Shown here piece by piece: positions 6,221 to 53,300 of a stretch of DNA of 64,000 bases (within the stretch, counting starts at the first letter, position 1; the number at the start of each line of letters is the position of its first letter). Position numbers and translations under genes: made by a program. The stretch is from Sipunculus nudus (taxonomy: Eukaryota; Annelida; Sipuncula; Golfingiida; Sipunculidae), in the NCBI GenBank assembly GCA_026874595.1, contig CM049306.1:46564019-46628018 (forward strand), in the 5' to 3' direction. The notes below the pieces were generated by a model. That model was not told the origin of the DNA, searched no databases, and was given only the letters and a program-made list of their open reading frames with translations.

Positions 6221-6224
6221 AAAT

Positions 6225-7562: not shown

Positions 7563-7939
7563 GTAATAAATGGGAATAATTTTGTCACATATCAAACATT
7601 CTTTTGTTATCGTTAAAACTGGGCGATCAACTGTTATATTATGACTGGAATTCTGCAGATGTACATTTATTTAGAATTAAGCTAGCATTTAAAAATTGGG
7701 GCGATCACCACCGACAAAATAAAAAAAAAATTAGTGTATTAAGATTTTGAAATACACGAATAAATATATAGCTCGTACTGACACTGCTGTTTCCGTCCAA
7801 GACTTAAGTGGAAATACGAGGAAATAAATAATTTTCTACGCTAAAGCAAATGCCACCAAATATATACAATACAAAATTGTCATATAAATCGTAGCTGGCG
7901 TCATGCCTACAGATTTATTAATTTTACCTAAGAATTAAA

Positions 7940-15625: not shown

Positions 15626-18600
15626 GTAACTGATACTTTTGTGTGCAGTATTTAAAATCAAAATGCCTTCATATATTTGTGATATTTTTGGGTTATTCGG
15701 GTTGGTTTTGGAGTGATTTTGGACTTGTTTCCAGTTCGTCTGTTCAGCAGACGTGTTGTGACAGACCAGTCCAGTGGCGGTTTAATTTGAACCTGACTTT
15801 GATGTTTATATCAGCTTCTGCACCCAGTCCCCTAGCCACCAAGGGTGACTATAAAATGTTAGATATATCTGAGAGTACATTTTATAGTCACCACCCCATG
15901 TATGCACTTGGGTGGGGTTCTAACCTGTGTATGATCTTGGTCTATAAAGGGAGAAAACCCCTCAGTAACTCGAGTATCTCATTTTTTAAAGACAACATTC
16001 TGTTATGGTAAGCTAATTGCATAAATACCCTGCTTAATTAAGTCTTTAACTCGTACAAAACTGGACCAGTACACATAACATTGTCGCCGCTACATATACA
16101 TTCTAACTGCTTCTGTCATGGCGGTTATGGGCAGAACGACCCGTGTTTTCTTAGACCAAAATACACAATAACTAAAGTAAAATACACTTACAGTTGCCAA
16201 TATGTTGCAGTTGTATTGAAAATAAGATACTTTTGTCATAGTGAAGAAGTTTTAATGTCACCCCATCCGTGAAACTGAAAATAAAATGGTCTTTTTCGGA
16301 AAATACGATCGTATCGTGGTCAAATACCACTTATCCCTATATATGGGGAGGCGACGAAACAGTCGTCCGTTAACGGTGCAAGACGTTTCGTCGCTGCAGG
16401 CGGCTACCAGTCCCCCGAAATACAGAACATTGTTGTTTTGGTTATTTGTGATGAAACACCTTAAAATACCCATCTGATGTCTAATTTTAAGCCAAAAACT
16501 GGCATCTTTTGATAAATTCCATTTGCGGATATCTTGTTTCTGTGGTGTAAATAGCAAAACTCACTATCATATCCGACCATCACAATAAACCGAGAGGGTT
16601 TATTGCCCCATTTTAAGCTGTAACCGGTTAGGCAAATGTTCAGAATATGGTCTACACATGAAACATGGCAAAGTGGTGTCACAAAAAATGTTTCCTTTCA
16701 ATTGCCGAAATGTTATAAAATTCCCTACATGGAGGGGACTGGACAGTCCAGAGGTAAAACGCTCAGCTCTCTCCGCTGGCGTCCTGGGTTCCATCCCCGG
16801 TGTGGCCATGAGAGTGGGTTGTAGATGCCTGTCCAAGGCCAGTGGTTTTCTCTGGGTTCTCCGGTTTCCACCACCCCTACAGACTGACGAACACCATCAT
16901 CGTCTGCCTGGATTAGTTAATAACTATTGTAGGGTCGGTCTTTTTACCGAGCGCTACCCTGGGGTCACACCCGTAATTGCTCTGACCCAAATGGGGCTAC
17001 TGAGTGCTGGGCACATTTTACCGGGCACTAGCCTGCTCTTACAACGGGAAGTGTTCTTACATAGGGTAGGGCAGGGCAAGACGCCCACCTTAAGCAGAAA
17101 CGTTTCCTGCGGGTTCTGAAACATCTTTAAATCATATTTTTTATTGTCAAAAGCTCAGATATATTCGCTACCATCGTGCACATGACAAATCATGTAGTTT
17201 TAACCGCATTCAACACAAAATATCATATTCAACTAGATATTTCTTGGCACCGCAGGTGCCAGAGTATCCCCAGACATAGTAGGCCCTCCCCCTTTAAGAA
17301 TAGGCCCCCATTTTTAGCAGCATATACTGACACTTGGCAAGCAATTATTGTTTCTTCCATCTATCAATCCACAATCTTTTTGAAGATGTTGGTCCTGTGA
17401 CCTTGACCTTTGACCTCATGACCCCAAAATCAATTGGGGTCTTGCTTTTTCAATGGGACATATATAAATCAAGTTTGAAATCTATACATCAATAAAAGCA
17501 GGAATTATCATCCAGAAACTAATTTTTTTACAGATGGCTCCTGTGGCCTTGACCTTTGACCTTGTGACCCCTAAATTGATACTGATCATCCACTTTTATA
17601 TATAAATCAATAGAGGTCTAGATTTATTGATGGGCCATATATAAATCAGGTTTGAAATCCATATATTAATCCAAGCTTGAATTATCATCTCGGGAACTAA
17701 TTTTTGGACAGATGGCTCCTGTGACCTTCACCTTTGACCTGGTGACCTTACAATTGACAGGCGTCTTCCTCTATTGGCAGGGGAACTGTATGTGCAAGAT
17801 GAAATGTCTGAGATGAAATGTTAGGCTGAAAATGCATCCACAATCTTTTTAAAGATGTGTCCTGTGACCTTGACCTTTGACCTCATGACCCCAAAATTAA
17901 TTTGGGTCTTGCTTTTCCAATGGGACATATAAAAGTCAAGTTTGAAATCTATACATCAATAAAAGCAGGTATTATCATCCAGAAACTAATTTTTGGACAG
18001 ATGGCTCATGTGACCTTCACCTTTGATCTTGTGACCTCAAAATTGATAGGGTTCTTCCTTTTTGGCAGGTGAACTATATGTGCAAGATGAAAGATCTGAG
18101 ATGAAATGTTTGGCTGAAAATGCATCCACATCTTTTTAAAGATGTGTCCTGTGACCTTGACCTTTGACCTCATGATCCCAAAATCAATTCATGTCTTGCT
18201 TTTCCAATGGGACATATACAAGTCAAGTTTGAAATCAATACATCAATAAAAGCAGGAATTATCATCCAGAAACTAATTTTTTGACAAATAGCTCTTGTGG
18301 CCTTGACCTTTGACCTTGTGACCCCAAAATTGATATGGATCATCCACTATTGGCAAGTGAGCTATATATTCAAGATGGAAGACCTGGGATGAAAGTTTGG
18401 CTTAAAATGCATCCACAGTATCTTTTAAGATGCAAGTCCAGTGACCTTGACCTTTGACCTCATGACCCTAGAACCCTAGGGTTCTTACTTTAGTAGTAGG
18501 CCATACATAAGTCACGTTTGAAATCCATATGGCTATCAACACTGGAGATATCGTAAGAGGTGTGTGATTTTCACCAAATATGGACACATTAAAGGTCAAG

Positions 18601-19513
18601 GCCACTCTCATGGTAAAGGTCATGACCCAAATGTAAAATGACCTCTTCCCATAACCCATCTCTCTACATGTGCATAATATGAAAGAAATCTGTCTATTTG
18701 TTTTTGACTTATAATGCTTACAGTACTGTCAAGTGGCAATTATGGGGGTATTAAAAGGCGTAAAAACAAGAAAAGGAAAATAGGTGGCGCCACCAGTTTC
18801 CGGTATATCACAAAGCTATCCAAGATCTTCGGTCACCTTGATTTTCGGACCAGTCCATGCAAGCTTACTTGAGATATTTAAGAATTTGTGTTATTTTCAG
18901 CAGAAATGGACCTATTCAGGGTCAAGGTCACTCTCTTAGCATAGGTCATGACCCCATTTTAAATAGGCTTCGTCTCCTTACCTATATCTATACAAATGTA
19001 AAGTTTGAAAAAAATCAGTGAAATATTTTTTGAGTTATCCCACTCACAAGGTTTTTCTGCGGCGGCGGCGGCGGGACCGTCATGAAACCATAGTATCCCG
19101 ACTTTGTCTGGGGATACAATTATTTACATTGTATTTGTTTAGGCCAAAAAAAAATAAAAGGTGTGGTTCTCAGGCACCGCCCGCATCAATTTTAAACCCC
19201 CGCATCAAAAATTTTTATTTTGATTTTCAATGGAAACTTACCCATTTTGAGCTGCAGCCGCTTGGAAATTTCTTTCAAGAAGATAAAATCATACAATTTC
19301 CTTTGTTATGTTGTGCTTTTACTTGTTTAGCAAAATAAATCTGTTATTATCATGCTTTTCCCTTATCATTTGACATTTTTATCGAACATACCAAAAAATT
19401 AAAAATAAAAAAAAACATTGATTTCTGAAAAAAGTGCCTGAGAACCATACCATTTTTTTATTTTGTCCTTATATAACATGAATAAGCAATGCTTATGTGA
19501 TCTTTCCCACTCA

Positions 19514-19588
<75 letters not shown>

Positions 19589-20284
19589 TCATGCTATATA
19601 AAAATATTATATATGTAATCTATATATCAGCAGTAAATCGTGTATTAATTTTTATAATATAACATACCCTCATTGAATATATATGTATTTTTGATTACAT
19701 CCCCTCTTATTCCGGTTCTTCTGTCTTTTTCTCTCTCTTTCTCTCACTGTCTCTCTTTCTTTCTCTCTCTCTCCCTTTCTTTCTTTATCTCTCTCTTTTT
19801 CTCTTTCCTTCTTTCTCTCTCCTACATATATCGGATAAATATTATATATAGTATAGGTCTTTATTACCTTTCCCTCTAATTCAGGTTCTTCTCTCTCTCT
19901 GTCTCTCTTTCTTTGTCTCTCTTTCATTCTTTCTATCTCTCCTTTATAGCCTGTATCGGATAAATGTTATATATGGTATAGCGCTCTCTCTTTCTTTATT
20001 TCTTTACTCAGTCTCTTTCGCTCGCTCTCGCTCTTTCTCTCTCTCTCTCATTTATATGTATATAAATATATTCTGATATATATGTAAATATGTAGCATAA
20101 TTTAAAATTATATATTATATTTATATAGGCCTAGTGATATATGAATAAATGTATTTACACATATATATGTAGAATTTATATGTATGTTTATCGTAATATT
20201 ATATATATATATATATATAAATATCTTTATATATATATATATATAAATATAAATATATAGGCCTATATATATATATATATATGT

Positions 20285-20354
<70 letters not shown>

Positions 20355-23300
20355 GGTATATAACCGTCATTTAAAAAAATTATGTAAAAGTTGTTACAAG
20401 TTTGGTGAGAAATCATCAATCTCATCCAGGGTGTAGACACCGTTCATTATTTTGTATGCTGGATTTACTAAGAAACATGATTTATGCCTGGTGGAAATCC
20501 AGGGTAGCGCTCGGTAAAAAGTCCCTGGCGCTCGGTAGTCCTGAGTATGTAAAAACGCACTGTTGCCCCGCGCGGGTCAGAGCAATGCCTCGTGTGAATC
20601 CAGGGTAGCGCTCGGTAAAAAGTCCTACCGAGCGCTAGCGCTTGGTAGCGCTCGGTACGCTCGGTAGCGCTCGGTTCAAAGACTGACCACTATTGTACAA
20701 TCCATGTGAAATAAATGTTATATTTATATTATATTTTTAGCTCACACCAGGAGTTCACTAATACATTATAGGCTGTTGCTACAGGTCCGGACCCGGACAA
20801 TGATAATACAGGCTAAAGTGGACACTGATCATACAGGCTTAAGTTCCGGCACTTCCTATGAGCATGCGCACTGACACTGCCAGACACATCTATGGAAGCT
20901 ATTTCTCTGGCACTGACTGACCTACCAGAGCATTTGCTATTGTTCGAGCATTTAGTAATTAATATAAATTTTATTTAATTTTTATTGTAGCACATAATGT
21001 AGAACGTTCTGGGAGAATACACATAGACCCGGAGATCAGCAAGATTAACTGCTTGATTTTAAATTGACCATGACCTAAGCAAGTTTAAAATATATGTACT
21101 CATTGTAGATGAGTGAGTACCAGAGAAATTTCCCGTGGCGGGATTCCAGCCTGGGTGCAGCTTACAAGCCTGCACCAACAATAACTGCAGCCCCTGCAGG
21201 GATGCCCTCAACTGCTTCTGGTAAGCCATGCTGTATTAACAATGACTATTTAAAAGATAGTGAGTTTGGTGTTGCTTTGCGGCCATTCAGGTGGGACTGA
21301 TTAATCTCTTGAGCTGTAATTTATTGTGATTTTTGATTGGTTGAAATTTCTAAGACTGCCATATCAATTTGATTGATCGACATTCAAATCATGGGTTTAA
21401 TATGATAATGTGAAGGAAATGTATCATTATTGTAAGTGGTAGAAAATATTGTAAAATCATATTTGATGGCTGAAAGACCAATGATTGATTATTTTTATAG
21501 ATTATTTTAATAAACCATTTCTATAACCATGGAATATGCTGCATAGAATTATACCTTAAATATTGACTAATAAATCTAATCTAACTTGTACATCACACTA
21601 AAAGGTCAGGGTAATGTCTGGGTTGTTTACACTTATTTGTTGCACAAAGTTAAGTTTTAATGTTGTTTTGTGTCCCTGCTTTCTTATATTTCAGACAGAA
21701 TAATAATATTTTATTTGGATAATACAACGTCTGTGAATGTTCATACATAATTGTTTGTGATCTGTTGTGCAAAAATGCAGTCAAGTTAATTTATTATGAA
21801 AGAAAAGGACCAATCAGCAATATAATCACTTATTGTAACCCTAATAACTAGGGAAAGGGATGGTGGCATCTAAGCTAATCTGGCTATTTTCCATTGGTAG
21901 GGTGACTGTGGCCAGTTAAAGGTTTGTCAATCAGCATTTGATACAAAATAGCAAAGTATTACTTCACTTTTTTATGACTTACCTGCGAGGGATACACCAA
22001 ACGATTATGATTACATTATCAATGTTCCCACTTCAGGTGCAGTGATGGAACCCCCTCTACAGAGGAAGAAGAGGTCAGCAGTGGAGGTGTCATCCTCCGT
22101 ACCAGCCAGTGTGCCTGTGGATGAGTATACACTGATCGGTGACCAGAAGAAATTTGGAGCCAGCATAAAGTATCGCAACAAATTCCAGCCAGAGAAGTCC
22201 TCCAAACCATCCCCTGCCAAGGTCTGAACATGTTGGTTCTTGGATCTTGGTACTTGAAGACTTAGATGTACTGCTCATTTATTTTTAAAGTCCTTTTTTG
22301 TTTTGTATATTTCCAGAAACTCATTTTTCTGACAATAATAGAATAATGTTATATAAAATAATCATATATAATTTTGAACCATGCTTTATTGTGTGGTTAG
22401 CATACATGTCAGACAACCGGTACTGAGGTATTTTTTGGGGGGGGGGGGTTGATAGTTTGAAATTGGTGGTGGCAGATATCATTTTGTGACATATTTTCTA
22501 CCTGTTTTAAAGAAATGGATGTACCATCAAAGAGTCAAGCTTTCTATTGTTGTGCATTAAGCTTTCTATATTATTGGGCTTAAATGGGTATGTGGGTGAT
22601 TAAATCATGATGGGATTGGAGATGTTAATTAATACTGGCTCTCAGGAAGGAACCAGTCTATCTAAACAAGGGTTGGCTGGCACAGGGTTACACCTGAGAT
22701 ACATTGCTAAAAGGGCAGTTCTAAACTCTAGGTATGGTTTGTCATGTTTATGCTGTAAATAATGTTGGATGACCATCACCATAAATTAAAAAAAAATGTA
22801 AAAATGTCAAGAAATAACAAATGTTTAAAACTAACACAAGGCTATTTGGAAACTTCATTTAGAAGGAAAAGGCCAAAGAACCAGAGGTACAAACTCCTCT
22901 TGCCCCACGACCAGCTCCCAAGGTCAAGGTTGACACAGGTGCCCCACCACCAAACATACCTCATCAAAAGACACAGGCCACCCAGTCACCAAATGGAGTC
23001 AGAGAGATGGCTAGGGAAGAATCAGCCCATGGTACCCAGAAGGTAACCCTTTACAGAAAACCCTTTTTCAATACTTTCTAATTTTTTTTAGCAAACCTGT
23101 GAGCTATGCGATGGTGTGGCGTTGTCCGTCGTCTGTACTTTAACCCATACTATCTTGAAAATGGCAAGAGTTAGCATTACAAAATTTTATGCAAAAAATT
23201 AGTCAGCTAAAAAACTCTATTAGATTTTGCTTATGTTTTGGCTAACTGCATTTTTTTAGATTTTATATGGAAAAAGCTTAAAAACCTTTAAAAATCTTCT

Positions 23301-26300
23301 TCTCCGAAACTGTTCAGCCAAATAGTCCAATATTTCATAGAAATGATCCCAGGAACAATCTCTCTCAAGTTTTTTTCAAATGGTGTAAGTTTGGTGATTT
23401 TTGGCCGAGTTAAAGGAAGTTGAACTTAGTCATCTGTACAAAAAAGCATACAAAAATTACAATCTCAGAAATGGCTGGAGGTATCATCACCAAATTGTAT
23501 GCGAATATTGGTCACATGAGTCATATCTGATTTTGAGGTATTGGTGGCGTCACCTGCATTAGCCTTTTTTGTACGGGGGTCATCTGTGCCCGTATCATAA
23601 TGAGGGCTACAAAACACTTCTTCTCTGAAACCATATGTCCAAATTGTTTAATATCACACAGAAATGATCTTACAGTAGTGCTTTCTGAAGTTTGTTCAAA
23701 TGGTCTCAGTTCAGTGACTTTGGCTGAGTTTTGGGAAGCTGAATTTAGTCATATGCCATAACAGCCCATTTTAGCTCAGTGGCTACAAAGATCTTCTCAA
23801 CAAAAACCACCGGGTCAAATTCTTTAATCTCACACATGAATGATCCCTAGATGTTGATAATTCAAATTTGTTCAAATGGTTTTGATTCAGTGATTTATAT
23901 AGATTTTATACAGGAAAAGTTAAAAAAGATGTAAAAATCTTCTTCTCCGAAACTGTTCAGTCAAATTGTCCAATATTTCACAGAAATGATCCCTGGAACA
24001 ATCTTTCTCAAGTTTGTTTGAATTGTTCCAGTTCCGAGAGTACAACCAGGAGGGGTCCAGACATCACCATGGCAACTGACCTGGCTCTGGAGGTTGTCTA
24101 GAAAATGTGTCTAGACATCTAGACACAGCGTCTAGATGTCTAGACACAATGTCTAGACGCAGAATTCCCAGATTATTTGGAACTATGTCTGTCAGCTGTT
24201 TGAAAAAACTTGTTTGCATTTTTAGCGAATCTGTGAGCTTATGCAATAGTGATGCGTCTTCCGTCTTCCATCGTCATAGCTATGTCAAAAGGGCAGGAGC
24301 TAGCATCACCAAGTTTTTACCAAAAGATTTTTTATCTAAAAAATTTTCGGATTTTTAGCGAACCTGTGAGCTTATGCAATGTTGCTGCATCGTCCATCGT
24401 GCGTCAGTGCGTCCTGCGTCGACTCTAGTTAACCATACCTATCTCAAAAATGGCAGGAGCTAGCATCACCAGATTTTTCGCAAATAATCAGTCATCAGTC
24501 ATCATTTGTTTATTTTTTTTCTAACTGCATTTTCTTAGATTTTTGCACAGCGTCCATCTGTTCATCTGCCTTGGAATAAAAACTCTCATACCTCTGCATT
24601 GGTTGGACTTATCGACCTGAAATTTTGCATGTGTATACATCTTGGACAGCTTTCTTGATTTTATGGCAGGTGGTGCCATCTACATTCAAATTTACGCTGC
24701 AGACATCCAAGCTCATATCTCTGGAACCATTGACCGATTGGGCAAAAATTTTGCATGTTTATAGATCTCACATAGCTCTTTATCATACGCAAAACTGGTG
24801 GCGCCACCTGCAATCATTTTTGCACAGTGTCCATCTGTTTGTCTGCCGTGGGATAAAATCACTCATATCTCGGCAGTGGTTTGACATAGCTGCCTAAAAT
24901 TTTGCAGGTGTATACATCTTGGACAGCTTTCTGGATTTTGTTGTAGGTGGCGCAACCTACATACACATTTAGGCTGCAGACATCCAGGCTATTATGCAAC
25001 ACACCTCACTCTATTTCCCCTGGCCACTCAATCCATGCCTCACTTCACCCGTCCCACTCTAATTTTGGCGGATACAAATAGTCGTTTGTTGACTACCCGT
25101 ATTCTAGTTTTTGTGTTGTGTGCACCCATGCTAGAATTTCAGCAGTTTGTTTAATTGTTTCTTGTTCTTAGTGTTTAGTACTTGCATTGTTCATATACAT
25201 GTTACACATGTTCTTGAAAAGTAATGGTCCAGCATTGAAGCATTACACCTGGTGTAATCTCATTGCACAGGTTCGCATTAGGCCTGTAGGCCTTGTTTAA
25301 ATATTACGACCACTAATGAAATAGGAGTACTTTTTGTTATTGGGTGAGTTCTGCAGCATTCTACCAGAATTTATTTTTTTCACTTAATATCTACAAAATT
25401 TATTTTTCTTCAGTTCTGAAGCATGCATACACTCTGGAGGCATATACATATAGATTTTTATATTTTCTGTTAAGGCAAATAAGTTTTTGTTTTTCATGTA
25501 GTTTTAGAAATATTAAATGATTAAGGACCAAATTGTTTAATGTTATGGATTTATTAAATTGGGAGAAAATGACCGTCATATTTTTGCTCATAATTTAAAG
25601 TTCAGAACAGGAGCTCCATTTGCCAAAGTGTCTACTCACACACAAACCACTAAGCCGGAGTTCAGAGAGGCAGAAGGAGAGAGGGAGGCTCCCACTCAGG
25701 AAGTCCAGAAGAAAACACAAAAACCAAAGGCTGGAGTTCTTAAGAAGAGCAAACTACCCAAGGAAAGCATAAGTGGTAAGTCTGTGTGTTAGGATCATTA
25801 AGCTAGTACTCTTTAATATCTATAATCTATAAAACATTTAATGGGGCTACCACTCTACTTTTGTCATGCAACTCATCTGTGGCCAAACCTCAGGAATGTC
25901 TGTGTTTGGTCTTGAACTGTTGGATACGTTTCCCAGAAACGAGTGTCCTGGGGGAGGGGGGCACTTCCATATTTTCCCTTAACTCTAAACAACATCAATA
26001 CTGAATAATGCTCACATTTATCCTCTTACTGTAGACTATGAATCAAGGTACAATTTAATCAAAATGAGAAATATTTAAAATAATGAAATTGTTCAAATTA
26101 GAATACTAGATGGCACTGTGAAGCAAAAGAGATATAACTGTAAATAATAATAATTTTGTTTCTGAGTACCCTGTGTACCCTCTTGCTCTACATTTGCCCT
26201 CCTGGAATCCTTAAAACCATGTACTTTATGTGTGTATGTGTGTGTATGTGCATGTACCGTATTATGCAATCTTCCTTTGTCCTTTGCAGCTCCAGATATA

Positions 26301-29300
26301 CAGGCATTAAAAGAGGCTGCAGGAAATGTCAGAAAGCCAGCATTGTCAAAAGGACTACCAGAAAAAAGGCACGCGAAGAAAGGTGCCATGAACGAGTTCA
26401 CTCAGACAAACCTGGACAAGGGGGTGGTGGACTCCGCTCAGGAGGCTCCTGTAAGGGACTGATAAATCCTTCATATGTGGATATATATATGGAAAATTTT
26501 GAAATTTATGATGCAGAAAACAGAATGTTTGTTAAATAGGCTACTGTATTATTCTCCTTTAATGTGTAGATAAGGATGTGGTACTCCCCAGAATGTTTCT
26601 CCAGCTGGCTTCAGCTTGGAAGCTATGGCATATGGGCTTATTGGCCACCAGACTCTCTCTGCAGATAGATTCTTACCGTGAGACTTTCCTTAGAGTACTA
26701 TCCAGTTTTATTCACATGTGCTTATCAAACCCTAACCCTGCAATAATTTCAAAACCACTGATTGGGGTTGCCATTTACAAACTAAAACCCAGGTGTGGCA
26801 AGTCACACACTGGTCAGAATTCAGGGTATACTACTAGCCAGTGTAAAACTGAACTGTACTTTATATAGGGAACGTACCTGGCTTGCTTGGTTAGGGCAAG
26901 TACAAGTCCTTGGTACTAATACTTGAGTATATAAATTGTTTGTAGTTTACTGTATGGTGAGATGTTGAAATTTGAACCCCCACAAAATACTGAATGTTTA
27001 TAACTTTAACCTTACATATATGAAGCCAACCACGATATATATTTTTTCCTGTTACTTTTTATCAGACGGCATGTTTTAACTCTTGACTTGTGTATTCATA
27101 CAGAGTGATTATGCTATGAAGTACAAGGCTGGTATAGCACCTCCTCGCAGCCTGGGTGCTAAGCGGCTGTCAGAGTATCAGAAACAGTTCACCTGGAGGA
27201 AAGGTGTCCCATCCTCTCCATTGTTAGCTGCAGAACAGGTAAGATCACACCTCTGAAGGATGATGTTAAAGCCGGCTATTCACCTAAATTTTCTGTAGAA
27301 TTTATGTGAATTTTTGCATATTCTGTTTACATATAAATGAACTCTAGGTAATTCATGTAAAGAAAAGTTCTTATAACATCTCTATGAGAGCAGTATGAGC
27401 TGTTGTATCTATAAGCTCTTAGTAAACACAGCTGACAAACAGAAAAACCATGTATTCAAAGGTGATTGGTTGCATATGGACGGAAGTTGAAAAGTCACTA
27501 GTTGCATAAAGCCCTATTCAAAACTTTGGTTCATCTGACTTGCTGTCAGATGTCCTTGTTGAATGTGTTTGGATTATTTTGGCAGTCCCACATGTAAAAA
27601 ATGTGGATGTAAACAAAGTGAGCAGCCTATGTGCAGTGCTATCTGTGTTTTTGAGCCTATTTTTTATCAAATGTTCAAGGGTTTATCTTTAGTTACTAGA
27701 CATCAGTAATCGGAATAGGTCCCTTTAAGAGACTGAGTATTAGAAATAATTTGATCAAGCAGTCACTTTACCTGTGTAGTGTTAGGTGACCTTTGCCAAT
27801 GAAATTAGATAACTTTAACATGCTTACAGTATATTGGAGCTTAAAATGTATTTCACTTTTAAAATCAGTATTCATGTATGTCAAAGTCTAGTTCATTACT
27901 TTATACCTAAATAAGTCACAAGATTGCATTTGATAGCATCGGGCAGTTCAGTATATAAAATATACATGTATGCAGTTCAATAAATAAATAATGGAAATTG
28001 TTCACAGTAAACTCTCTAACCTACTATGACTTGTATTGGTAATGGAACTGTACTTGATGATACTTACACGTTATATGTTTTAGGTTGTGTACAATAGCAA
28101 TCCTCAGGTGGCCCCTTACAAGCCTGACAATGTGCCCAAACGTAGTGAATACCAAATGCAGTTTAATCCTGCAGCTCAGACTGTGTCTGCACCTGTCATC
28201 TCAGCAGCAGAACCTAAACCCTCCAAGGCCAAGAAACCTAAGGTAACCTTGTTTATTGATATGATCTAGATAAAGCCAAATATATCCACCTACCTACTTG
28301 TCCCCCCTTCCTCAGAATGTGGGGCATTGATTTGGGTTTGTCTGGCTATGTCTGTCTGTCTGTCAGGTTTTCGTTTCCGATAACTTTTTAAAATTTGATC
28401 AGATATCATTCAAATTTGGGTCAGTGTTGGCTCTCATGCATACGTTGGTTAGGATTTGTTTTGGAGTATCTGTCTGAAAATATATGATCAGCAGTTCAAA
28501 AACAAAACAAAAAATTCCCCTTTGGTTTCCAATTCACAACAAAAAATTATGACATGTGGAGACATCTTCATGGAGCAATGAAAACTAAAACATATTGATA
28601 GAGCAAGCAGAGGGCACCAAGAGGTTTAAGCGGGGGACGTAAATTCCACAAATTTGCTTGTTTGTACAATTTATGTGATTTCCGGCTTACTCTAGGTACA
28701 TATTAATGAACTGTTTGATGATATTTCAAAACATTTTTATACCCCCGCCACAAAGTGGCCGGGGCATATAGTTTTACCCATGTCCGTCATTCCGTCCTTC
28801 CGTCATTCCGAAATCAAACAGTTGTACGGACTTTTTTTCGCAGTACCTGCAGATATTGGCCTGATTTTTGGTGTGTGGGCAGATATGAGACCAGTTACAG
28901 ATCGAGTTCGCGTTTCGTCCCGGTTGACCTACTTTTTGACCGTTTTACGGCTCCTAAACTTAAAAAATTTCATGAAAAATAGAAATTTTCATGACAAATA
29001 CACATGTACGGACTTTTTTTCGCAATGCCTGCAGATATTGGCCTGATTTTTGGTGTGTAGGCAGATAATGACCAGTTACAGATCGAGTTCGCGTTTTGTC
29101 CCAGTTGACCTACTTTGACTGTTTTACGGCTCCAAAACTTAGAAAATTTCATGAAAAATAGAAATTTTCATGACAAATGTATACATGTACGGACTTTTTT
29201 TCGCAATGCCTGCAGATATTGGCCTGTTTTTCTTGTGTGGGCAGATAATGACCAGTTACTGATCGAGATCGCGTTTCGTCCTGGTTGACCTACTTTTGAC

Positions 29301-41300: not shown

Positions 41301-44300
41301 TTACACAGTTTTACAGTCACAGCTCAGAATACCAAACAGAAAACTTGGTTATAAAGATTTACAGGTTTAGTGATATTTAGCAGTGTTTGATAATTTGACA
41401 GTGTTGTGTTTCCATAGATATTTTTTATACGCCCATCATATGACAGGCGTATTATGGTATAACCACAGTCAGCCCATCTGGCCATCCATCTTTCAGTTAA
41501 CTTTAAGTGTCATTGCTATAACTTACTGGGGCTTTAATGGATATTCACGAAACTCACCATAACTACTTACCAACAGATTATTTTGCCTGAGTTCGATTAT
41601 GGGCAACATCCATGCGCATTTAATAAGATCACGGGTCACTAGGCTTTTTGTGGTGTCACCGTGATAACTTACGAAGAATATGAAGGATTTTGATAAAACT
41701 CATTAGAAATGTTACCGGTAATCAATAAAATATCTTGCCTAAGTTTAATTTCCAGCAAAACCCATGCATTTATAATGAGGTCAGAGGTCACCAAACTTTT
41801 GAGGCACCTTGGTGACTTACCAAAAATCCTGTGGATTTTCATGAAAATCACCATAACTACTTACCAAAATAGTTTCTCACCTGAATTATATTTTCATCAA
41901 AATTCACACATATTTATTGAGGTCAGAGGTCACCAGATTCACAACGGGCGTATTATTCACTTTGCAGTGCTCTTGTTAAGAATTTTTATGTACATTCTTT
42001 GATTCATGCCTTGGATACTTATTATATTTGTTGCTCATTCAGGTCTGCCATGTTTGAGAGGTTATTGAGTTGATACAGAATGTCACAAAACAAAAATATT
42101 TGAAAGCATTATCTGCATGACATGCGGTAAGCAACATTTGTTCAGTGTGCACTGATCTTTTTATTAAGGTTCAGTCTTGACTTACCTATTTCACAGAGAG
42201 GAATGCTTTATTACTGACTTAGCAAAGTAAGTATGGATAATTTACATAAATCTTATCTGTAATGTTCCAGAATAGAAATTAATTTTATTAAGCAGATTGA
42301 ATAAAGATTAATGCATCTTCCTTGCAGCTAGGATCTAGCTGCTATTTGCTACCAAGGTACCTTGCTTCATTTAGCAGCTCTTACATCTTATTTCACATCT
42401 GTTATTTGAATAAATAACAAGGCAATTGAACCAACCAAATGACTTGTTTTAGAAGGCTTCCGAAGCAGTATTTCAGGCCATCAAGGTTCTGACCAATCAA
42501 ATAAAGCGTTTTTAAGCCCATCCTGTTTTGGCTGCATTTTTTTGTCCCCCACTCCGCAGATGTGGGGGACATTGATTTGGGATTGTTTGTCTGTCTGTCA
42601 GTCGGTCTGTCTGTTCTTCCGTCAGGTTTTGTTCTGCGTCATTACTTTCCTAAATTTTATCCCATTTCATTCAAATTTGGATCAGTGATCGCTCTCATGC
42701 ATACCTGGGTTGGGATTGGTTTTGGAGTGTCTGTCTGAAAAATATTTTTCTCCAGCTCAAAAACAAAATTCTTAAATTTTGGTTAAATTTCTCAGTGTGT
42801 TTTAGTTTTTATGTTGGCCTGAAGATGTCTCTACATGTCATAGTGGATTTTGGTCCTATTTCTAAATGTGTTTAAGTTTTTATGTTTGCCAGCAGATATC
42901 TCCACATCTCACAGTTGATCTGTTTTTCATGTGATCTCAAAATTTTCTCCACATGTAATAATTTTGGTTCTTTATCAGGGAATGAAAGAAAACAAGTTCC
43001 CAAAGCGGGGGACATTAATTCAACGAATTTGCTTGTTTTTAGGCCGACAGAGTTGAACAGTGTATTGTTTACATTTGGTTTGTTTGATTTGATTGGCAGT
43101 AGTAATATTGACCCAAACACATGGAGGCTTTTATTATTCATGTAATAGATGCCAGAGTATCTCGCTGAAGCAAGGTCTGGGGGTAGTGTATTGGGCCCAG
43201 ATCCTTGCTGGCATGAAAATGAGACTGATGCTCTTGTTTGGCAATTTTCCTCAGGACTGCTGATGCTTTCGATACATCATATTGATCTTCTGAGAGAACT
43301 CTGAGATTTAAAATAAGTATTTTTTACCCTATGTGCCCCAGGATTGGTCAAATTGCACATTCAGTTTTCTGACCTTTACAAAAGATATAAAGTTTAACAT
43401 TATGGTGACTGAGGTTTCTGATATAAATTAAGATTGGTTGAATAGGTCTACATTCAGTGATATATCAATTTTGGTTACAAGTTGGCATATATTTAAAACA
43501 TGTGATAACATACCACAGTATTTTCATATTGCAACATTTTATATGAAAATTATGATAATAGAATGGACTTTGTTCTGTCATGTGTTGAAAATAAACTTTT
43601 TGATAACATTTTGAAAAGAAGAAGATTAGGTATAATCTTTATTTGGATGAACAAAAGGTCTTTCCTACCACCCTAGTGACATCTGTGAGCAACAACTAAC
43701 ATTGAGTGTTCAGGTCTTTTATATCAACAAGGTAGATCATATTTTGTGATATCTCAAATGATAAAAGTTAGAAAGTACCTACCTAAACTTCAGTGATGAA
43801 ATTCATGTTGAAAATTCTATATTGTTTCTGATTTCAAGTGACAAAAACAATAATTCTGAATCATTGGACCCAAACACAGCAGACAATCATTATATGAATG
43901 TGCATGCTCAGTGGATAGGTATACTGTCTTAGTGATTTATTTTGTATCCGGACAGATTGTCATAATTAATGAGGGATATGAATGACTAAGAATGGAGCTC
44001 TTGATATATATGATAATTAACAGTTAAATTATAGTTAAGAGTCATAAATATTTATAAATATTTGATCATAGTTTATTTAATTTCAGCAGAAGTTATAACT
44101 TTTTATCTGTTTGAAGTAAGTCATTTTGAAATAATGATTTTTTATCGACAGACTACCCCAACCTATGGCATGGCAACCCGTGACACTCATGTTTTAATAG
44201 ATGATGATGCATCTACTGACAGACCATTGGAGACCCAGTTTGTCCACACTCCCAAGAAAGGTTAGTTTTAAGTGTAAGAATTTTTCAAGCACCTTTCAAG

Positions 44301-47300
44301 ACCACCAGGTGTCACTGCTGCATGACATAGTGGATCAGTCAAACTGTGATCATTACATCTTCATGTTTAAATTTACAACAAATTGAATTAATTTATCTTT
44401 GCTTGGTTAAGATTTACCATAAAAGTTGTGTTCACAGGTTTGTCTTTTAAATGCATAACATGTTGATGAAAATGGTTAACAAAAAATTGAATAAAATAAA
44501 ATGTTTCAGGTTCATCAGTATGTCAAGTTGCTTTATATAAATAACTTACAGTTAAACCATTTTTCCTGTAATTTTTCTAACACAGGTAGGTTAAAAATTA
44601 ATTGGTCTTGTGTGATTCACTGTAGTCACCTTATTTTTTGCGAGGTTTCAATTTTTGCGATATTCACGAAAGGGAAAATTGTCGCAAAAATAAACCTTTG
44701 TGAATAAGAGGCTCCATCATTGAAGGGAAGTCGTAAAGCAAACTTTTGATATATAAATAGTACTTGATCTTGTATGTTCCCATAAATCACAGACTCCTAT
44801 AAGAAATGATATCGAATCTTTTAAATAATCTGGCAGTAATGAACAAAAATGTCCACTTGTTTGATGTTGCCTTTAGTTGTTGTCCAACTGTTTACGATTT
44901 GAGTACAGATTATTTAATTTAACTAATTCATATTATAATGGATATATTGTGTAGTTTGCACTATGGCCAGATTGTGAAAATGGAACCCTTGCGAAACAAT
45001 GATAATATGAAAATCAGGCCACAAATATGAAGTCTACCACAGTATTTAGACTTTGATGTTTGCTTGGGTGGTCTATTTGATTGCTTGGGTGGTCTATGTG
45101 ATTGCTTGGATGGTCTATTTGATTGCTTGGATTGTCTATTTGATTTCTGTGAAAATTGTCAGATGAGCATACTTTTGTATGAAGTGAACATGCTTAACAC
45201 TGACAATAAGTTGCACAGAATCAGTACATATGTGACACTGTGTACTGTTACTCAGTATTATTAAAATTGTATTATGGTTATTAGCTCAGCTGACTGAAAG
45301 TCATCTGAGCTATAGGGATCACCTTTTGTCCGTCGTCCGTCCGGCCGTCCGGGCGTCTGTCCGTTAACAGGGCACAAATCGTAACCGCTAGAACTGGAAT
45401 CTTCTTACTTGACATCCTGGGAGGTCCATGAAAAATCTCCTTGGAAACCAGAAATTAGGTCTCTGTTACCCATATCCTTCAAGCTATGGGGCCCAAAGTA
45501 CCCCCCAGAAAAGTCCTAAATTTCATACAAAAACTTCAATATCTCATTAACTACTTGACTGATGGTCATGATTTTTGGCATACATATTGATCATGAGAGG
45601 TTCCATCAGTTCCTGAAGACCGGTGGCGCCACCTGTATCGTTCAATTTTTTACGAATTTTTTTCTCTATTTTTGAGACCTTAAAAAATGTGAACATCTGT
45701 TAACAAGGCACAAATCGTAAAGACTGGACCTAGAATCTTCATTCTCGACACACTGAGAGACCTATGAAAAGTCTCCATGGAAACCAGAAATTAGGTCTCT
45801 TGTTACCCATATTCTTCAAGCTATGGAGCCCCAAAGTACCCCCAAGAAAAGTAAAAAATTTCATACAAAAACTTCAATATCTCATTAACTACTTGACTGA
45901 TGGTCATGATTTGTGGCATAACTATTGATCATGAGATGTGTCATCACTTCCTGCAGACTGGTGGCGCCACCTTTATCGTTCGATTTTTTTACGATTTTTT
46001 CCTCTATTTTTGAGACCTTTAAGGATGCTGTCATCTGTTAGCATGGCACAAATCTAGAATCTTCATTCTTGACACACTGAGAGGTCCATGAAAAATATCC
46101 TTGGAAACCAGAAATTAGGTCTCTGTTAACCATATCCTTCGAGCTATGGGGCCCGAAAGTACCCCCCCCCCCCCCAGTAGTCAAAAATTTCATACAAAAA
46201 CTTCAATATCTCAATAACTACATCACTGATGGTCATGATTTTTGGCATACATATTGATTATGAGATGTTCCATCAGTTCTTGCAGACTTGTGGCGCCACC
46301 TGTATTGTTTGATTTTTTACGATTTTTTCCTCTATTTTTGAGACCTTTAATGATGCTGTCATCTGTTAACGTGGCACAAATCATAACGACTGGACCTAGA
46401 ATCTTCATTCTTGACACACTGAGAGACCTATGAAAAGTCTCCATGGAAACCAAAATTAGGTCTCTGTTACCCATATTCTTCGAGCTATGGAGCCCTAAAG
46501 TACCCCCAAGAAAAGTAAAAAATTTCATACAAAAACTTCAATATCTCATTAACTACTTGACTGATGGTCATGATTTGTGGCATAACTATAGATCATGAGA
46601 TGTGTCATCTGTTCCTGCAGACTGGTGGCGCCACCTGTATCGTTCAATTTTTTACGATTTTTTCCTCTATTTTTGAGACCTTTAAGGATGCTGTCATCTG
46701 TTAGCATGGCACAAATAGTAACGACTGGACCTAGAATCTTCATTCTCGACACACTAGAAGACCTATGAAAAGTCTCCGTGGAAACCAGAAATTAGGTCTC
46801 TTGTTACCCATATTCTTCAAGCTATGGAGCCCCAAAGTACCCCCAAGAAAAGTAAAAAATTTCATACAAAAACTTCAATATCTCATTAACTACTTGACTG
46901 ATGGTCATGATTTGTGGCATAACTATTGATCATGAGATGTGTCATCACTTCCTGCAGACTGGTGGCGCCACCTTTATCGTTCGATTTTTTAACGATTTTT
47001 TCCTCTATTTTTGAGACCTTTAAGGATGCTGTCATCTGTTAGCATGGCACAAATCTAGAATCTTCATTCTTGACACACTGAGAGGTCCATGAAAAATATC
47101 CTTGGAAACCAGAAATTAGGTCTCTGTTAACCATATCCTTCGAGCTATGGGGCCCGAAAGTACCCCCCCCCCCCCCCCCCCCCCGAGTAGTCAAAAATTT
47201 CATACAAAAACTTCAATATCTCAATAACTACATCACTGATGGTCATGATTTTTGGCATACATATTGATTATGAGATGTTCCATCAGTTCCTGCAGACTTG

Positions 47301-50300
47301 TGGCGCCACCTGTATTGTTTGATTTTTTACGATTTTTTCCTCTATTTTTGAGACCTTTAATGATGCTGTCATCTGTTAACGTGGCACAAATCATAACGAC
47401 TGGACCTAGAATCTTCATTCTCGACACACTGAGAGACCTATTAAAAGTCTCCATGGAAACCAAAATTAGGTCTCTGTTACCCATATTCTTCGAGCTATGG
47501 AGCCCTAAAGTACCCCCAAGAAAAGTAAAAAATTTCATACAAAAACTTCAATATTTCATTAACTACTTGACTGATGGTCATGATTTGTGGCATAACTATA
47601 GATCATGAGATGTGTCATCTGTTCGTGCAGACTGGTGGCGCCACCTGTATCGTTCAATTTTTTACGATTTTTTCCTCTATTTTTGAGACCTTTAAGGATG
47701 CTGTCATCTGTTAGCATGGCACAAATAGTAACGACTGGACCTAGAATCTTCATTCTCGACACACTAGAAGACCTATGAAAAGTCTCCATGGAAACCAGAA
47801 ATTAGGTCTCTGTTACCCATATCCTTCGAGCTATGGGGCCCCAAAGTACCCCCCAGAGTAGTCAAAAATTTCATACAAAAACTTCAATATCTCAATAACT
47901 ACATCACTGATGGTCATGATTTTTGGCATACATATTGATTATGAGATGTTCCATCAGTTCCTGCAGACTTGTGGCGCCACCTATATTGTTTGATTTTTTT
48001 ACGATTTCTTCCTCTATTTTTGAGACCTTTAAGGATGCTGTCATTTGTTAGCATGGCACAAATCGTAACGACTGGACCTAGAATCTTCATTCTCAATAGA
48101 CTGAGAGACCTATGAAAAGTCTCCATGGAAACCAGAAATTAGGTCTCTGTTACCCATATCCTTCGAGCTAGGGGGCCCCAAAGTACCCCCCAGAGTAGTA
48201 AAAAATTTCATACAAAAACTTCAATATCTCAATAACTACATCACTGATGGTCATGATTTGTGGCATAACTATTGATCAAGAGGTGTTCCATCAGTTCCTG
48301 CAGACTGGTGGCACAACCTGTATTTGTTCGGGTTTTTTTTACGAATGTTTTATCTATTTTTGAGACCTTTAAAGATATGAACATCTGTTAACAGGGCACA
48401 AATCATAAAAACTGGACCTAGAATCTTCATTCTTGACACACAGGGAGACCCATGAAAATTCTCCATGGAAACCTGAAATTAGGTCTCTGTTACCCATATT
48501 CTTTAGGCTGTATGGCTCCAAAATACCCCCCAGAATAATGGAAAATTTGATACAAAAAGTGCAGTATCTCAATAAATACAACACTGATGGTCATGATTTT
48601 TGGCATACATATTGATCATGAGCTGTTCCATCAGTTTCTGCAGAGAGGGTGCGCCACCTCTATTTTTTTCAAATTTTTACGAATTTTTTTTCTCTTTTTT
48701 CGAGACCTTTGAAGATGTGGTTATCTATCAATAGGGTACAAATTGCAACAACTGGACCTAGAAACTTCATTCTTGTCATGCAAGGAGGCCCATGAAGAGT
48801 GCCTGTGGAAACTTGAAATTAGGTCTCTGTTACCCATATCCTTCAAGCTATAGGACTCTGAAGTATCCCTCAGAATAATGGACAATTTGATACAAAAGCT
48901 GAAGTATCTGAACAACTAATACGGAGATCCTCATGATTCTTTGCATGGATATTGACCATTAAGTGTTTTTAGCTCAGCTGACTGTAAGTCATCTGAGCTA
49001 TAGGGATCACCTTTTGTCCGTCGGCCGTCCGGCCGTCCGGGCGCCTGTCCGTTAACAGGGCACAAATCGTAACCGCTAGAACTGGAATCTTCTTACTTGA
49101 CATCCTGGGAGGTCTATGGAAATTCTCCTTGTAAACCTGAAATTAGGTCACTGTGACCTATATTCTTCGAGCTATGGGGTTCCGAAGTACCCCCAGAATA
49201 ATGGAAAATTTGATACAAAAGCTCAAGTATCTGAACAACTAATGCATTGATCATCATGATTTTTTGCATGGATATTGATCATGGAGTGTTTCATCAGTTT
49301 CTGCAGACTGGTGGTGCCACCTGTATTTTTTCGATTTTTACCAATATTTTTCTCTTTTTTTGAGACCTCTTAAGATGCGGCCATCTGTTAACAGGGCACA
49401 AATCGTAACGACTACACCTAGAATCTTCTCTCTTGACATGCAGGGAGGCCCATAAAAAGTCTCTTTGGAAACCTGAAATTAGGTCTCTGTTACCCATAAC
49501 CTTTGAGCTATGGGGCTTCGAAGTACCCCCCCAGAATAATGGAAAATTTGATACAAAAGCTCAAGTATCTAAACAACTATTGCAGTGATCACCATGATTC
49601 TTTGCATGGATATTGATCATGGAATATGTCATCAGTTTCTGCAGTATGGTGGCGCCACCTGTATTTTTTTTATTTTTAAGAATTTTTTTCTCTATTTTTG
49701 AGACCTCGTAAGATGTGGTCATCTGTTAACATGGCACAAATCGTAACAACTGGACCTAGAATCTTCTCTCTTGACATACTGAGAGGCCCATGAAAAGTCT
49801 CCTTAAAAACTTGAAATTAGGTCTCTGTTACCCATAACCTCTGAGCTATGGGGGCTCCAAAGTACCCCCCAGAATAAATGGAAAATTTGATACAAAAGCT
49901 CAAGTATCTGAACAATTTTTATGTTGATCACCATGATTCTTTGCATGGATATTGATCATGAAATGTTTCATCAGTTTCTGCATTCTGGTGGCGCCACCAG
50001 TATTTTTTCAATTTTTAGCTCAGCTGACTGAAAGTCAGCTGAGCTATAGGGATCACCTTTTGTCCGTTGTCCGTCTGGCCATCCAGGCGTCTGTCTGTTA
50101 ACAGGGCACAAATTGTAACCGCTAGACCGGGAATCTTCTTACTTGACATCCTGGGAGGTCTATGGAAATTCTCCTTGTAAACCTGAAATTAGGTCACTGT
50201 GTCCTATATTCTTCGAGCTATAGGGTTCTGAAGTACCCCCCAGAATAATGCAAAATTTAATACAAAAGCTCAAGTATCTGATCAACTAATCCATTAATCG

Positions 50301-53300
50301 CCATGATTCTTTGCATGGATATTGATCATGGAGTGTTTCATCAATTTCTGGAGATTGGTGGCGCCACCTATATTTTTTTTTATTTTTTACGATTTTTTTT
50401 CTCTACTTTTGTGATCTTTAAACATTTGGTCATCTGTAAACAGGGCACAAATCATAATGACTGGACCTAGAATCTTCTGTCCTCACCTCCAGGGAAGCCC
50501 ATAAAAGGTCTACATGGAAACCCGAAATAAGGTCCCTGTTACCCATATCCTTCATGCTCTGGGGCTCCGAAGTACTCCCCAGAATAAAGATTTGGCCATC
50601 TGTTAACAGAGCACAAATTATAATGACTTGACCTAGAATCTCCTTTCTTGATATGCTGGGAGGCCCCTGAAAAGTCTCCTTGTGCACCTGAAATTACATA
50701 TCTGTTACCCATATCCTTCATCCTATGCGGCTATGAAATACCCCCCAGAATAAACATTTGGTCATCTGTTAACAGGGCACAATTCATAATAACTAGACCT
50801 AGAATTTTATTTTTTGACATGCTGGGAGACCCCTGAAAAGTCATCTTGTAAACCTTGAAAATAGGTGTCTGTTACCCATATCCTTCATGCTACAGAGCTC
50901 CATAGTACCCCAATGAATATTGGATGATTTTATACAAAAGGTCAAGTTTGGAAAAAGTATTTCATTCAAATTTGACATTCAGATGATAAAATTACTTTTG
51001 TCAATGTCTTCCTGGTCAGCTGAGCGTCATGACCCCTGGGTCACTTGTTATAAAATGTTACTGTTTGTGCTTACAGTGAAGCCTGAGGGTGTCCCATCAA
51101 CTATTGCTGAAGAAACAAGTCCACAGTTACCAAAGTCATGGGGAAGCCAGTACAGTAAGTGTCAATCAATTTATAATGTAGGAGACACACAGATGAGTGT
51201 AAAAAGTACTTTAATGTTCTCCATCCAAAGCATGCCTCACTTAACCTAGGGGCATGGACCCCCCCCCCCCCTCTCCCCCCAACACTATTTTTTAGACCTA
51301 AACAATTTGGAAGTATAAGTGTTTGGTACAGAAAACCAAGTTTGATTTTGCACCAGGATGCATTTTAAACTACCCCAGATTGTGCTGTTGCAGCCTAAAT
51401 TTTCAAATTGTTTCTCCACTAATGGAGGGGAACCCGTCCCATATTTCTCCACCCTCTGCATCTCCCTCTTTTCAAATTATGTATCTGCCTCTCCTCACAC
51501 CATAATCTGAGGCATCCACAGAATGTGTAATGTTCCTTGAAAACCTTGTAAGTGCTTGGATTTAAAATGGTAATTTCAAGGCCTTGAAATCCTTGAAAAT
51601 AGTGCTTTGAAATCTTAGCACAGTCCTTGAATTTTGAAGCAGAGCTACCTTTGCTATTTTCATAGCATATTATTATATTCTTTGATTTTGTAGCCAAGTT
51701 TTTTATTTGTTTTTACACACTTTGATGTGGTAGCGGCATCAGATCAGTTGGAAAACCAGTCAAAGATGATCCTTGACATTTGTAAAATTTTACATTGAAT
51801 GTCCTTGAAAAGTCCTTTACAGTTGTACCAACCTGCATCCAACAACCTGATAACATCTGAGTGAAAATTTGTGTTAAAAACAGAGGTGATTTTGTAGTTT
51901 CCCTGACACAGCCTGCTTTACAGCCTTCTGTATAGTGACAGAATTGTGCTATACAGTTGGAATATACTGAGACTGGGCTGTATCAGGCTTTACTTTGGCA
52001 ATGTGCTACGTTCAAGCCATAAAACTGTTAAGGCTAAGAACTTATTCATATGACACAATACATGTAATACCATTATTCACAAGAGGTCAGCACATGGCTG
52101 ATTATGATGCTAATAGTTTCATGGGTTTGTGTGGGTAAATGGGGAAACAATGCTGACAAAACACTTAAAACAGTTGCTCTATGATTGATTTGAAGGCGGA
52201 ACAGAAACAAGACTAAATATCACCAAGCGATAACTGAAAGCCTTCCCCCAACGCCTGCAACTGAGCAATAATGTGGAATCCACTATGGAGTGTACCACCT
52301 AGGAAATAGGTTAAGGTCCAAAAATTAATATCAAGTGTAAATCTGTGATGTATGACTAATATTGTGCCCATAGGTCAGTTTTGAAAAAAAGCCATTTTTG
52401 AGATCTAGTCCAGACAGAAGACAGGAAAAGAAAAAAGAAAACAAATTTTGTACTTGATGGTTTTGCACCTAAGAAGTTCCACCCACAAAATATTTTGACT
52501 CAAATATGAATGTTAAAGTAAACTCATCAACAGCTATAAGCCTTCCCTCCATATATGGGGGAGGCTTAATAGGGTATAAACAATATGAAAAGTGTCCCTT
52601 TAAGTATGTGGTCTTACATCATTTCTTCATGAGCAATACATTATAAGTATTTGTTATGATTATATAATCTGTCCAATATTACCACAGGACCAAGAAAATT
52701 GAAAACCAACTTGGCAACCATTGTAAGCAGCTCTGGATATTTTTTTTACTGTGGCTCAGTGATGCTGTCAATTAATTATTTAACTTTTTTCAAATTCATT
52801 GCTGTGAAGTGGTCTGAAGTGAAGTGAATTGACTGCACTGCTGGTGCCATCTGGTTTTATTGGTTGACACTACTGTTGCAAGTTGTCAACATCTTAATTG
52901 TTCACTCTGCTTTGCTTGTGGGCAACAAAGTTGTTATGGCCACTATAAAAGTTCAATTTTCGGCATTTAGTGACATTGAAACAAATCAACAGAATTTGTG
53001 TTACCAGCATATGTTTCTAAATATTAATCTTATAAAATAATAAGTTGAAAAAAGTTGGGTTTTATTGATTTGTGAGTGCTGAGATTTAAGTTTTAACATG
53101 GAGTCTCAATTAATTGTCTACTGGTATTGTCTGTCAGAACACATCTGAATAATGTCAGTTATCAGTTACAGCTTAAAAGAAGTTCAGAGGTCAGATGTAT
53201 AGTCAAACTTACAATTCATAAGTAGATATGTGAAATTTGTAATTTCTTTGGTTTTAAAAACCAACAGTTTTGTTGGAAAGCAAGGTGTGCATATATATGT

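Follow-up and report, generated by a model that had tools for sequence, protein, structure and literature searches.

Six families of probable HINEs, non-autonomous Helentrons, in and beside an MDM1-like gene of Sipunculus nudus, and co-orientation of sampled copies of three of them over tens of kilobases

What kind of mobile element has repeatedly entered the 64,000-nucleotide stretch of Sipunculus nudus DNA analyzed here (the window; C1:46564019-46628018 of a 1.43 Gb assembly in 153 contigs), which enzyme moved it, and why do so many of the copies lie on one strand? The window carries an MDM1-like gene with ten insertions of repeat families A–E between its exons, where most of the repeat finding sits, and an element of a sixth family, F, which lies 2 kb before that gene's first exon. 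A reading made from the letters of the window (the sequence-only reading) had proposed that six sequence-unrelated families share one Helentron-like plan and are mobilized by one helicase acting in trans. The plan is upheld by terminal inverted repeats that are asymmetric, hairpins at the heads of five of the families, a 3′ hairpin, a T-run target, the absence of a duplication at a family B empty site, and an autonomous lineage with the same plan; we assign A–F to HINEs, the non-autonomous Helentrons of the Helitron2 group, with a probability of about 0.88.

At its 5′ end (the head), each family carries a terminal inverted repeat of approximately 8 to 13 bp, which recurs subterminally, just ahead of a 3′ hairpin (the tail); the 3′ ends across families are CTTGTT, TTGTT or CTAGTT. 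Folding against shuffled sequences revealed head hairpins in A (z = −3.93), B (z = −4.96), C (z = −2.58) and D (z = −5.28), the four already recognized, and also in F (minus strand, from 19119; z = −2.77), so that the number of hairpin heads is five. A 3′ palindrome is readable by eye in all six families; among 100 listed A tails of 5,229, the variable hairpin pair was kept (A-T; G-C in 3) though the search pattern permitted mispairs. The heads and tails of A–E stand where the sequence-only reading had placed them (Table 1), and F proved to be a real element, misread in its strand and its end. F as a plus-strand element ending in TTTGTT was considered and rejected: both a blind rule and the tail copies in the genome place it on the minus strand, TTTGTT being flank, and its tail reads TGTCTGGGGATAC, the hairpin TGGCACCTGCGGTGCCA, then ..CTAGTT.

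Searches for tails across the genome returned 11,125 (E), 5,122 (F) and 588 (D) sites at up to 3 mismatches, and 5,229 sites exact to a degenerate pattern for A, with 0 sites for the reversed-pattern control in each case. In the F tail copies fetched, CTAGTT stood eight bases past the search pattern in 10/10, and the flanks diverged right after it in 10/10. The D tails fetched ended in CTTGTT in 10/10, which is not an independent test because the selecting pattern contained that end. Within the window, a loose rule (10-bp repeat, hairpin and TTGTT/TAGTT) found 12 matches on both strands. Forty shuffles averaged 2.6 per strand and reached at most 9; the observed number is approximately twice the chance level, too little to carry the claim. 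A strict rule with the head hairpin added found 5 matches on both strands, whereas 60 shuffles gave 0.12 per strand and never more than 1; four of the five are A, B, D and F. One of the five is a GTAGCGCTCGGTA-type motif repeated at 16930-16975 and 20490-20680. It is the repeated genome copies, more than these chance scans, that carry most of the weight for the plan.

An empty site gave the boundaries of family B directly. A Rep-bearing element (locus L036, with L085) is interrupted upstream of its Rep frame by a 1.7-kb B element, and its uninterrupted relative (L038) is 98% identical on both sides of the insertion; the empty site reads TATTTTTT directly followed by CTTG, and the filled site reads TATTTTTT, ATGCC...CTAGTT, CTTG. 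This comparison shows no target-site duplication, and two Ts are assignable to either side, as also described for mite HINEs (PMC4067079). The B head beside the Rep frame of L036 was considered as an autonomous B element, and rejected as such; it belongs to this insertion. Among 31 B heads (one being the window's own), positions −5 to −1 before ATGCC are T in 31, 30, 27, 31 and 31, respectively; in 16 B tails read (again one from the window), the base after CTAG is T in 15, and 12 have TT there. Most of the A and E heads examined stand after a T-run, and the Helitron2 target is described as lying after TTTT (PMC5148889). The features of Helitron1 (5′ TC, 3′ CTRR, no 5′ hairpin, insertion between A and T) are not those of the present elements, which have 5′ hairpins and a T-run target; B and F nonetheless end in CTAG before TT. 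Neither sign that the sequence-only reading had named as speaking against the plan, a target-site duplication or ends that exclude the tail hairpin and terminal motif, was seen, the empty-site comparison being that of family B. Long internal tandem arrays could suggest miniature inverted-repeat transposable elements (MITEs) or tandem satellites instead of rolling-circle elements; against the asymmetric repeats, the 3′ hairpin, the T-run target and the B empty site without duplication, such an origin is very improbable.

Several results weigh against extending the HINE assignment evenly to all six families. The E head, folded against shuffles, gave no hairpin (z = 0.10), which may be compared with the non-palindromic subterminal inverted repeats (subTIRs) of DINE-1 (PMC4067079). 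The separate tail hairpin claimed for every family is clear by folding in B (z = −2.64) and F (z = −2.95), while the window tails of A (z = −0.70 and 0.05), C (z = 0.22), D (z = 0.33) and E (z = −1.10) fold no better than shuffles. The C tail has 4 genome matches at up to 3 mismatches (reversed-pattern control 0), leaving this family nearly without close relatives; the single empty site obtained, from family B, bounds the reach of that comparison to other families; and none of the A–F ends was found on Rep-bearing elements in the stretches read.

The families are mostly, not wholly, unrelated in sequence. Pairwise comparison (E up to 1e-3) yielded five cross-family matches, each of 19–49 bases; four connect A, E and F, and the remaining one connects A with C. 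The module common to A, E and F is centred on GGTGGCGCCACC, which occurs at 11 exact sites in the window, all within A, E or F, and at 0 sites in 50 mononucleotide shuffles; the term "sequence-unrelated" has to be relaxed to this extent. Nor is a gathering of six non-homologous families as unusual as had been supposed: Cg_HINE elements of the Pacific oyster comprise 11 families in one genome, several of them mutually unrelated (PMC7492417).

Rep proteins are abundant in this genome, with at least 143 matches to Pfam Helitron_like_N (150 of 195 candidates scored), in open frames of up to 2,426 codons, and the 30 Rep loci fetched sort into about seven groups when DNA matches longer than 300 bases are used. 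One autonomous lineage, G (copies C7, C8 and C11), was followed from its 5′ end. The C11 copy has an intact single frame encoding, in this order, STPR repeats, DUF6570, OTU, Helitron_like_N (3.7e-33), PIF1 (1.3e-21) and Exo_endo_phos (1.3e-13); the STPR repeats, DUF6570 and OTU protease domain ahead of the Rep domain in one copy's protein were read at loci L012 and L069. Rep motif 2 of lineage G reads IEFQARGSPHAH and carries the Helentron signature GSPHAH, with S between G and P, which is the published rule for Helentron Rep motif 2 (PMC4067079). For most of their length the C7 and C11 copies are about 99% alike, and in one repeat-rich stretch 95–97%; their match stops exactly at the head hairpin TTGCTTGCCGGAAATC-TTC-GATTTCCG, followed inward by a GTCTGTTTG track, and because the flanks diverge at this hairpin, the 5′ end of the lineage is fixed. 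The Rep frame runs in reverse relative to the element, which was read for ~23 kb from the 5′ end, the far end lying beyond that stretch. In the C11 copy, a tail with matching repeat, hairpin and CTTGTT abuts the G head, and beside the C8 copy the same repeat is followed by CTAGTT. The inverted repeat, GCTTGCCGG, is the lineage's own, unlike those of A–F. The genome search for an autonomous Rep-helicase, advised by the sequence-only reading, has thus turned up an intact Helentron lineage with the plan of A–F and a different repeat at its ends. Allowing up to 3 mismatches, the genome contains 5,621 G heads. Fifteen G-type heads stand in a row at C14:2032479-2055116, 12 of the 14 intervals being exactly 1,553 bp and the others 1,556 and 2,445; such spacing is expected of a rolling-circle concatemer, joined head to tail, that has become a satellite.

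Transposition of such elements might proceed as follows. A Rep-helicase would nick one strand at the head, and rolling-circle replication would peel off the nicked strand; the 3′ repeat could pair with the head repeat and dissolve the head hairpin (an idea of PMC3627910), the 3′ hairpin would mark the element end, and the strand would then be joined at a T-run, which would end up directly upstream of the head. An enzyme of the required kind is encoded intact in the genome, and what its lineage G shares with the families is the plan. If one Rep-helicase moved all six families in trans, it would read shape (5′ T-run, hairpins, a CTWGTT-like end) and not the inverted-repeat sequence. The plan common to A–F and G would fit such an enzyme, as would the GGCAAGCG repeat beside autonomous copies, which occurs with both CTTGTT and CTAGTT; G, however, carries its own repeat, Rep-bearing elements with A–F ends were absent from the stretches read, and the Rep lineages are many, so that we regard a single enzyme as unlikely. 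The one trans-acting helicase for many passengers put forward by the sequence-only reading is accordingly not shown. Probably, a separate autonomous lineage with a matching repeat exists or once existed for each family, whether among the Rep lineages whose ends are unread or among lineages now extinct. Two mite HINE subfamilies are deletion derivatives of autonomous partners (PMC4067079), and the number of Rep lineages in this genome leaves room for such partners; on the other side, none with A–F ends was seen, and the oyster study likewise could not tie its HINEs to autonomous elements (PMC7492417).

The strand on which the elements lie raises the last question. All ten A–E insertions in the MDM1-like gene are in sense orientation (10/10), and F, together with an A relic further up, lies on the opposite strand to the gene. 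The two-sided p value is 0.002 at even odds; if the supply of T5 runs (58 sense versus 36 antisense in the gene outside elements) sets the odds, the one-sided value is 0.008. The pattern was noted after the fact, and its score covers Helentron families A–E alone within the gene. Among 36 fetched A or B loci, with the two window copies excluded, 16 had a neighbour of another scored family inside the same locus; 15 agreed in strand, 1 was mixed and 0 disagreed.

For contig C1, the comparison across families took in 100 tails of each family, those listed first, which reach to 17.3 Mb in A, 26.3 Mb in E and 75.7 Mb in F. A–E pairs agreed in strand in 7/7 cases at less than 5 kb, 15/15 at 5–15 kb, 18/21 at 15–30 kb and 34/41 at 30–60 kb; farther apart, agreement was 42/69 (60–120 kb), 48/87 (120–200 kb), 60/106 (200–300 kb) and 126/213 (300–500 kb), and it was gone at 0.5–1 Mb (223/473). 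The total up to 60 kb, 74/84, was reached by 0/2,000 label shuffles and 0/84 rotations. E–F pairs agreed in 18/22 within 60 kb (label-shuffle p = 0.0065) and 72/91 within 250 kb, versus 27/59 at 250–500 kb; A–F pairs agreed in 12/14 within 60 kb and 8/15 at 60–120 kb. Merging A, E and F to 17.4 Mb gave 207 insertions in 51 strand runs, versus 104 (standard deviation 7, minimum 79 of 5,000) when shuffled. Multi-family clusters were uniform in 16/16 at gaps up to 10 kb (6.4 expected), 18/20 at gaps up to 15 kb and 28/33 up to 30 kb.

Co-orientation of A, E and F over tens of kilobases is most simply read as insertion or survival favouring one strand of the transcription unit. Near-100% agreement at gene scale, fading over ~100 kb, together with the switch at the upstream edge of the gene, makes gene-sense insertion or retention the best fit; strand uniformity over nearly 1 Mb would be compatible with replication direction as well. 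As a tentative proposal, short of even odds, Helentron insertion may be strand-directed by a genome-wide process, in which a single-stranded DNA intermediate would enter either the coding strand that transcription displaces and lays bare, perhaps at R-loops, or the lagging-strand template of replication forks, the route of IS608-like elements in bacteria, so that A, E and F would record local polarity along animal chromosomes.

A number of observations count against the co-orientation. One chromosome was sampled densely, with perfect-tail copies only, and the pairs share members and are not independent. E–F agreement within 30 kb was 9/12 (label-shuffle p = 0.11); G heads agreed with E in 3/9 and with F in 4/12 cases within 250 kb; and pairs from the other lists, E–F and G excluded, agreed in 23/39 within 250 kb, parts of which are B–F 7/9, D–F 12/17, A–F 0/4 (one A versus one tandem F array) and A–D 0/3. 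Controls were too sparse: of 191 copies of a short interspersed nuclear element (SINE), 100 were listed, and within 50 kb of a listed Helentron site on C1 there was one on the same strand and one on the opposite strand; zinc-finger genes, taken as strand markers, numbered 2,160 sites, and of the 100 listed 9 lie on C1, where the two within 50 kb of a listed Helentron site were likewise split between same and opposite strand. These counts are too few to make an adequate control from another element class. Two E–A tail pairs, with starts 213 and 217 bp apart, look like composites. Such pairs would also fit a by-product, namely nesting in the oriented T-runs of older elements, or joint copying in segmental duplications, with the direction of transcription or replication irrelevant. 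Tail-to-head junctions do occur, and the T5 runs of the gene are themselves skewed in favour of sense; A–E agreement nevertheless continues at 5–60 kb, with pairs closer than 5 kb removed (67/77), and one stretch of C1 holds 22 successive listed insertions of three families over 917 kb, all minus. We consider a by-product of this kind doubtful.

The insertions and their host gene are collected in Table 1. Pfam MDM1 was scanned against five exons of the MDM1-like gene, of which 33565-33816 (E = 2.8e-24) and 27107-27238 (E = 9.5e-11) scored above cut-off; the first exon scored weakly (0.023, below cut-off), and two of the five gave no match.

Table 1 Features of the window (positions counted from its first letter; "missed before" marks copies overlooked by the sequence-only reading).
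Feature	Position	Strand	Details
Host gene, MDM1-like	21109..53849	+	translated exons, chained by eye
Family A, copy A1	34940..36846	+	head hairpin, CCGTC/CTGTC track, 337-bp tandem repeats, 3′ repeat TCAGCTGAGC, hairpin, CTTGTT
Family A, copy A2	45281..51049	+	three heads (45281, 48969, 50015), 13.9 x 338-bp repeats, single tail (51016-51049)
Family A, copy A0, older	30756..32388	+	head and tail retained; missed before
Family A, relic	6054..7576	-	missed before
Family B	37097..38672	+	head hairpin, CCGTC/CTGTC track, 180-bp repeats, tail hairpin, CTAGTT
Family B, second copy	28738..30290	+	no recognisable tail; missed before
Family C	41426..41977	+	head and tail
Family C, second copy, diverged	32590..33115	+	81% over 532 bp; missed before
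Family D	42542..43037	+	head and tail
Family D, second copy, diverged	28303..28662	+	77% over 224 bp; missed before
Family E	23088..25297	+	heads 23088, 24222, 24355 (24355 best); tail 25265-25297; head not a hairpin
Family F	17231..19119	-	head hairpin from 19119; tail hairpin and CTAGTT, ending 17231

At window position 50015, and at loci L002, L005 and L055, A heads lie inside A's own tandem array with a nearly identical left flank, and multi-headed A elements may be copied as units. A CTTGTT tail is joined directly to a head of the same family at L055 (minus strand, ~175-215) and at L080:1512-1545, a tandem 3′-end insertion. Four F tails lie on one strand at C1:63714006-63743290 with ~9.76 kb spacing, forming a tandem array of a larger unit. 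Minus-strand frames at window 10924-11480 resemble what we take to be a fragment of a BEL/Pao retrotransposon.

With an intact Helentron, mapped at its 5′ end, and HINEs by the thousand in the same assembly, it becomes testable which enzyme moves which HINE. If co-orientation survives controls, it shows either how a eukaryotic rolling-circle element picks its target strand or how strong selection against antisense copies is, and many copies become usable as strand markers. Orientation domains of Helitrons or Helentrons were not reported in the available portions of the literature searched on orientation, strand and fork bias, which is no proof of absence.

The plan of A–F equals that of Helitron2 and Cg_HINE, and the families themselves are of an already-known type, HINEs that spread tandem repeats. 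Helitron2 shares asymmetric terminal inverted repeats, 5′ and 3′ hairpins and insertion after TTTT, and its RepHel is sometimes encoded in reverse, as in lineage G (PMC3627910, PMC5148889); A–F differ in that no RepHel was seen encoded in them. HINE-Mo and DINE-1 resemble A–F in subTIRs, a 3′ palindrome, a T-rich target without target-site change and, in some, tandem repeats, whereas autonomous partners are established for two mite HINE subfamilies (PMC4067079) and no such link was found for A–F. Compared by plan and not by sequence, the oyster Cg_HINE elements share a 5′ subTIR with a complementary inverted repeat, a GTCC/GTCY microsatellite in several, tandem repeats, a 3′ subTIR, a palindrome and TT insertion with no duplication (PMC7492417). 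In the available text of that study, the HINEs could not be related to an autonomous element. A difference is that the present genome has yielded an intact Helentron whose 5′ end is fixed; the oyster text reports integration in both orientations and mentions no domains, whereas here orientation was compared across families (PMC7492417). A model for orientation domains is offered by the bacterial single-strand elements of the IS200/IS605 group (IS608, ISDra2), in which orientation follows host replication (PMC5371812).

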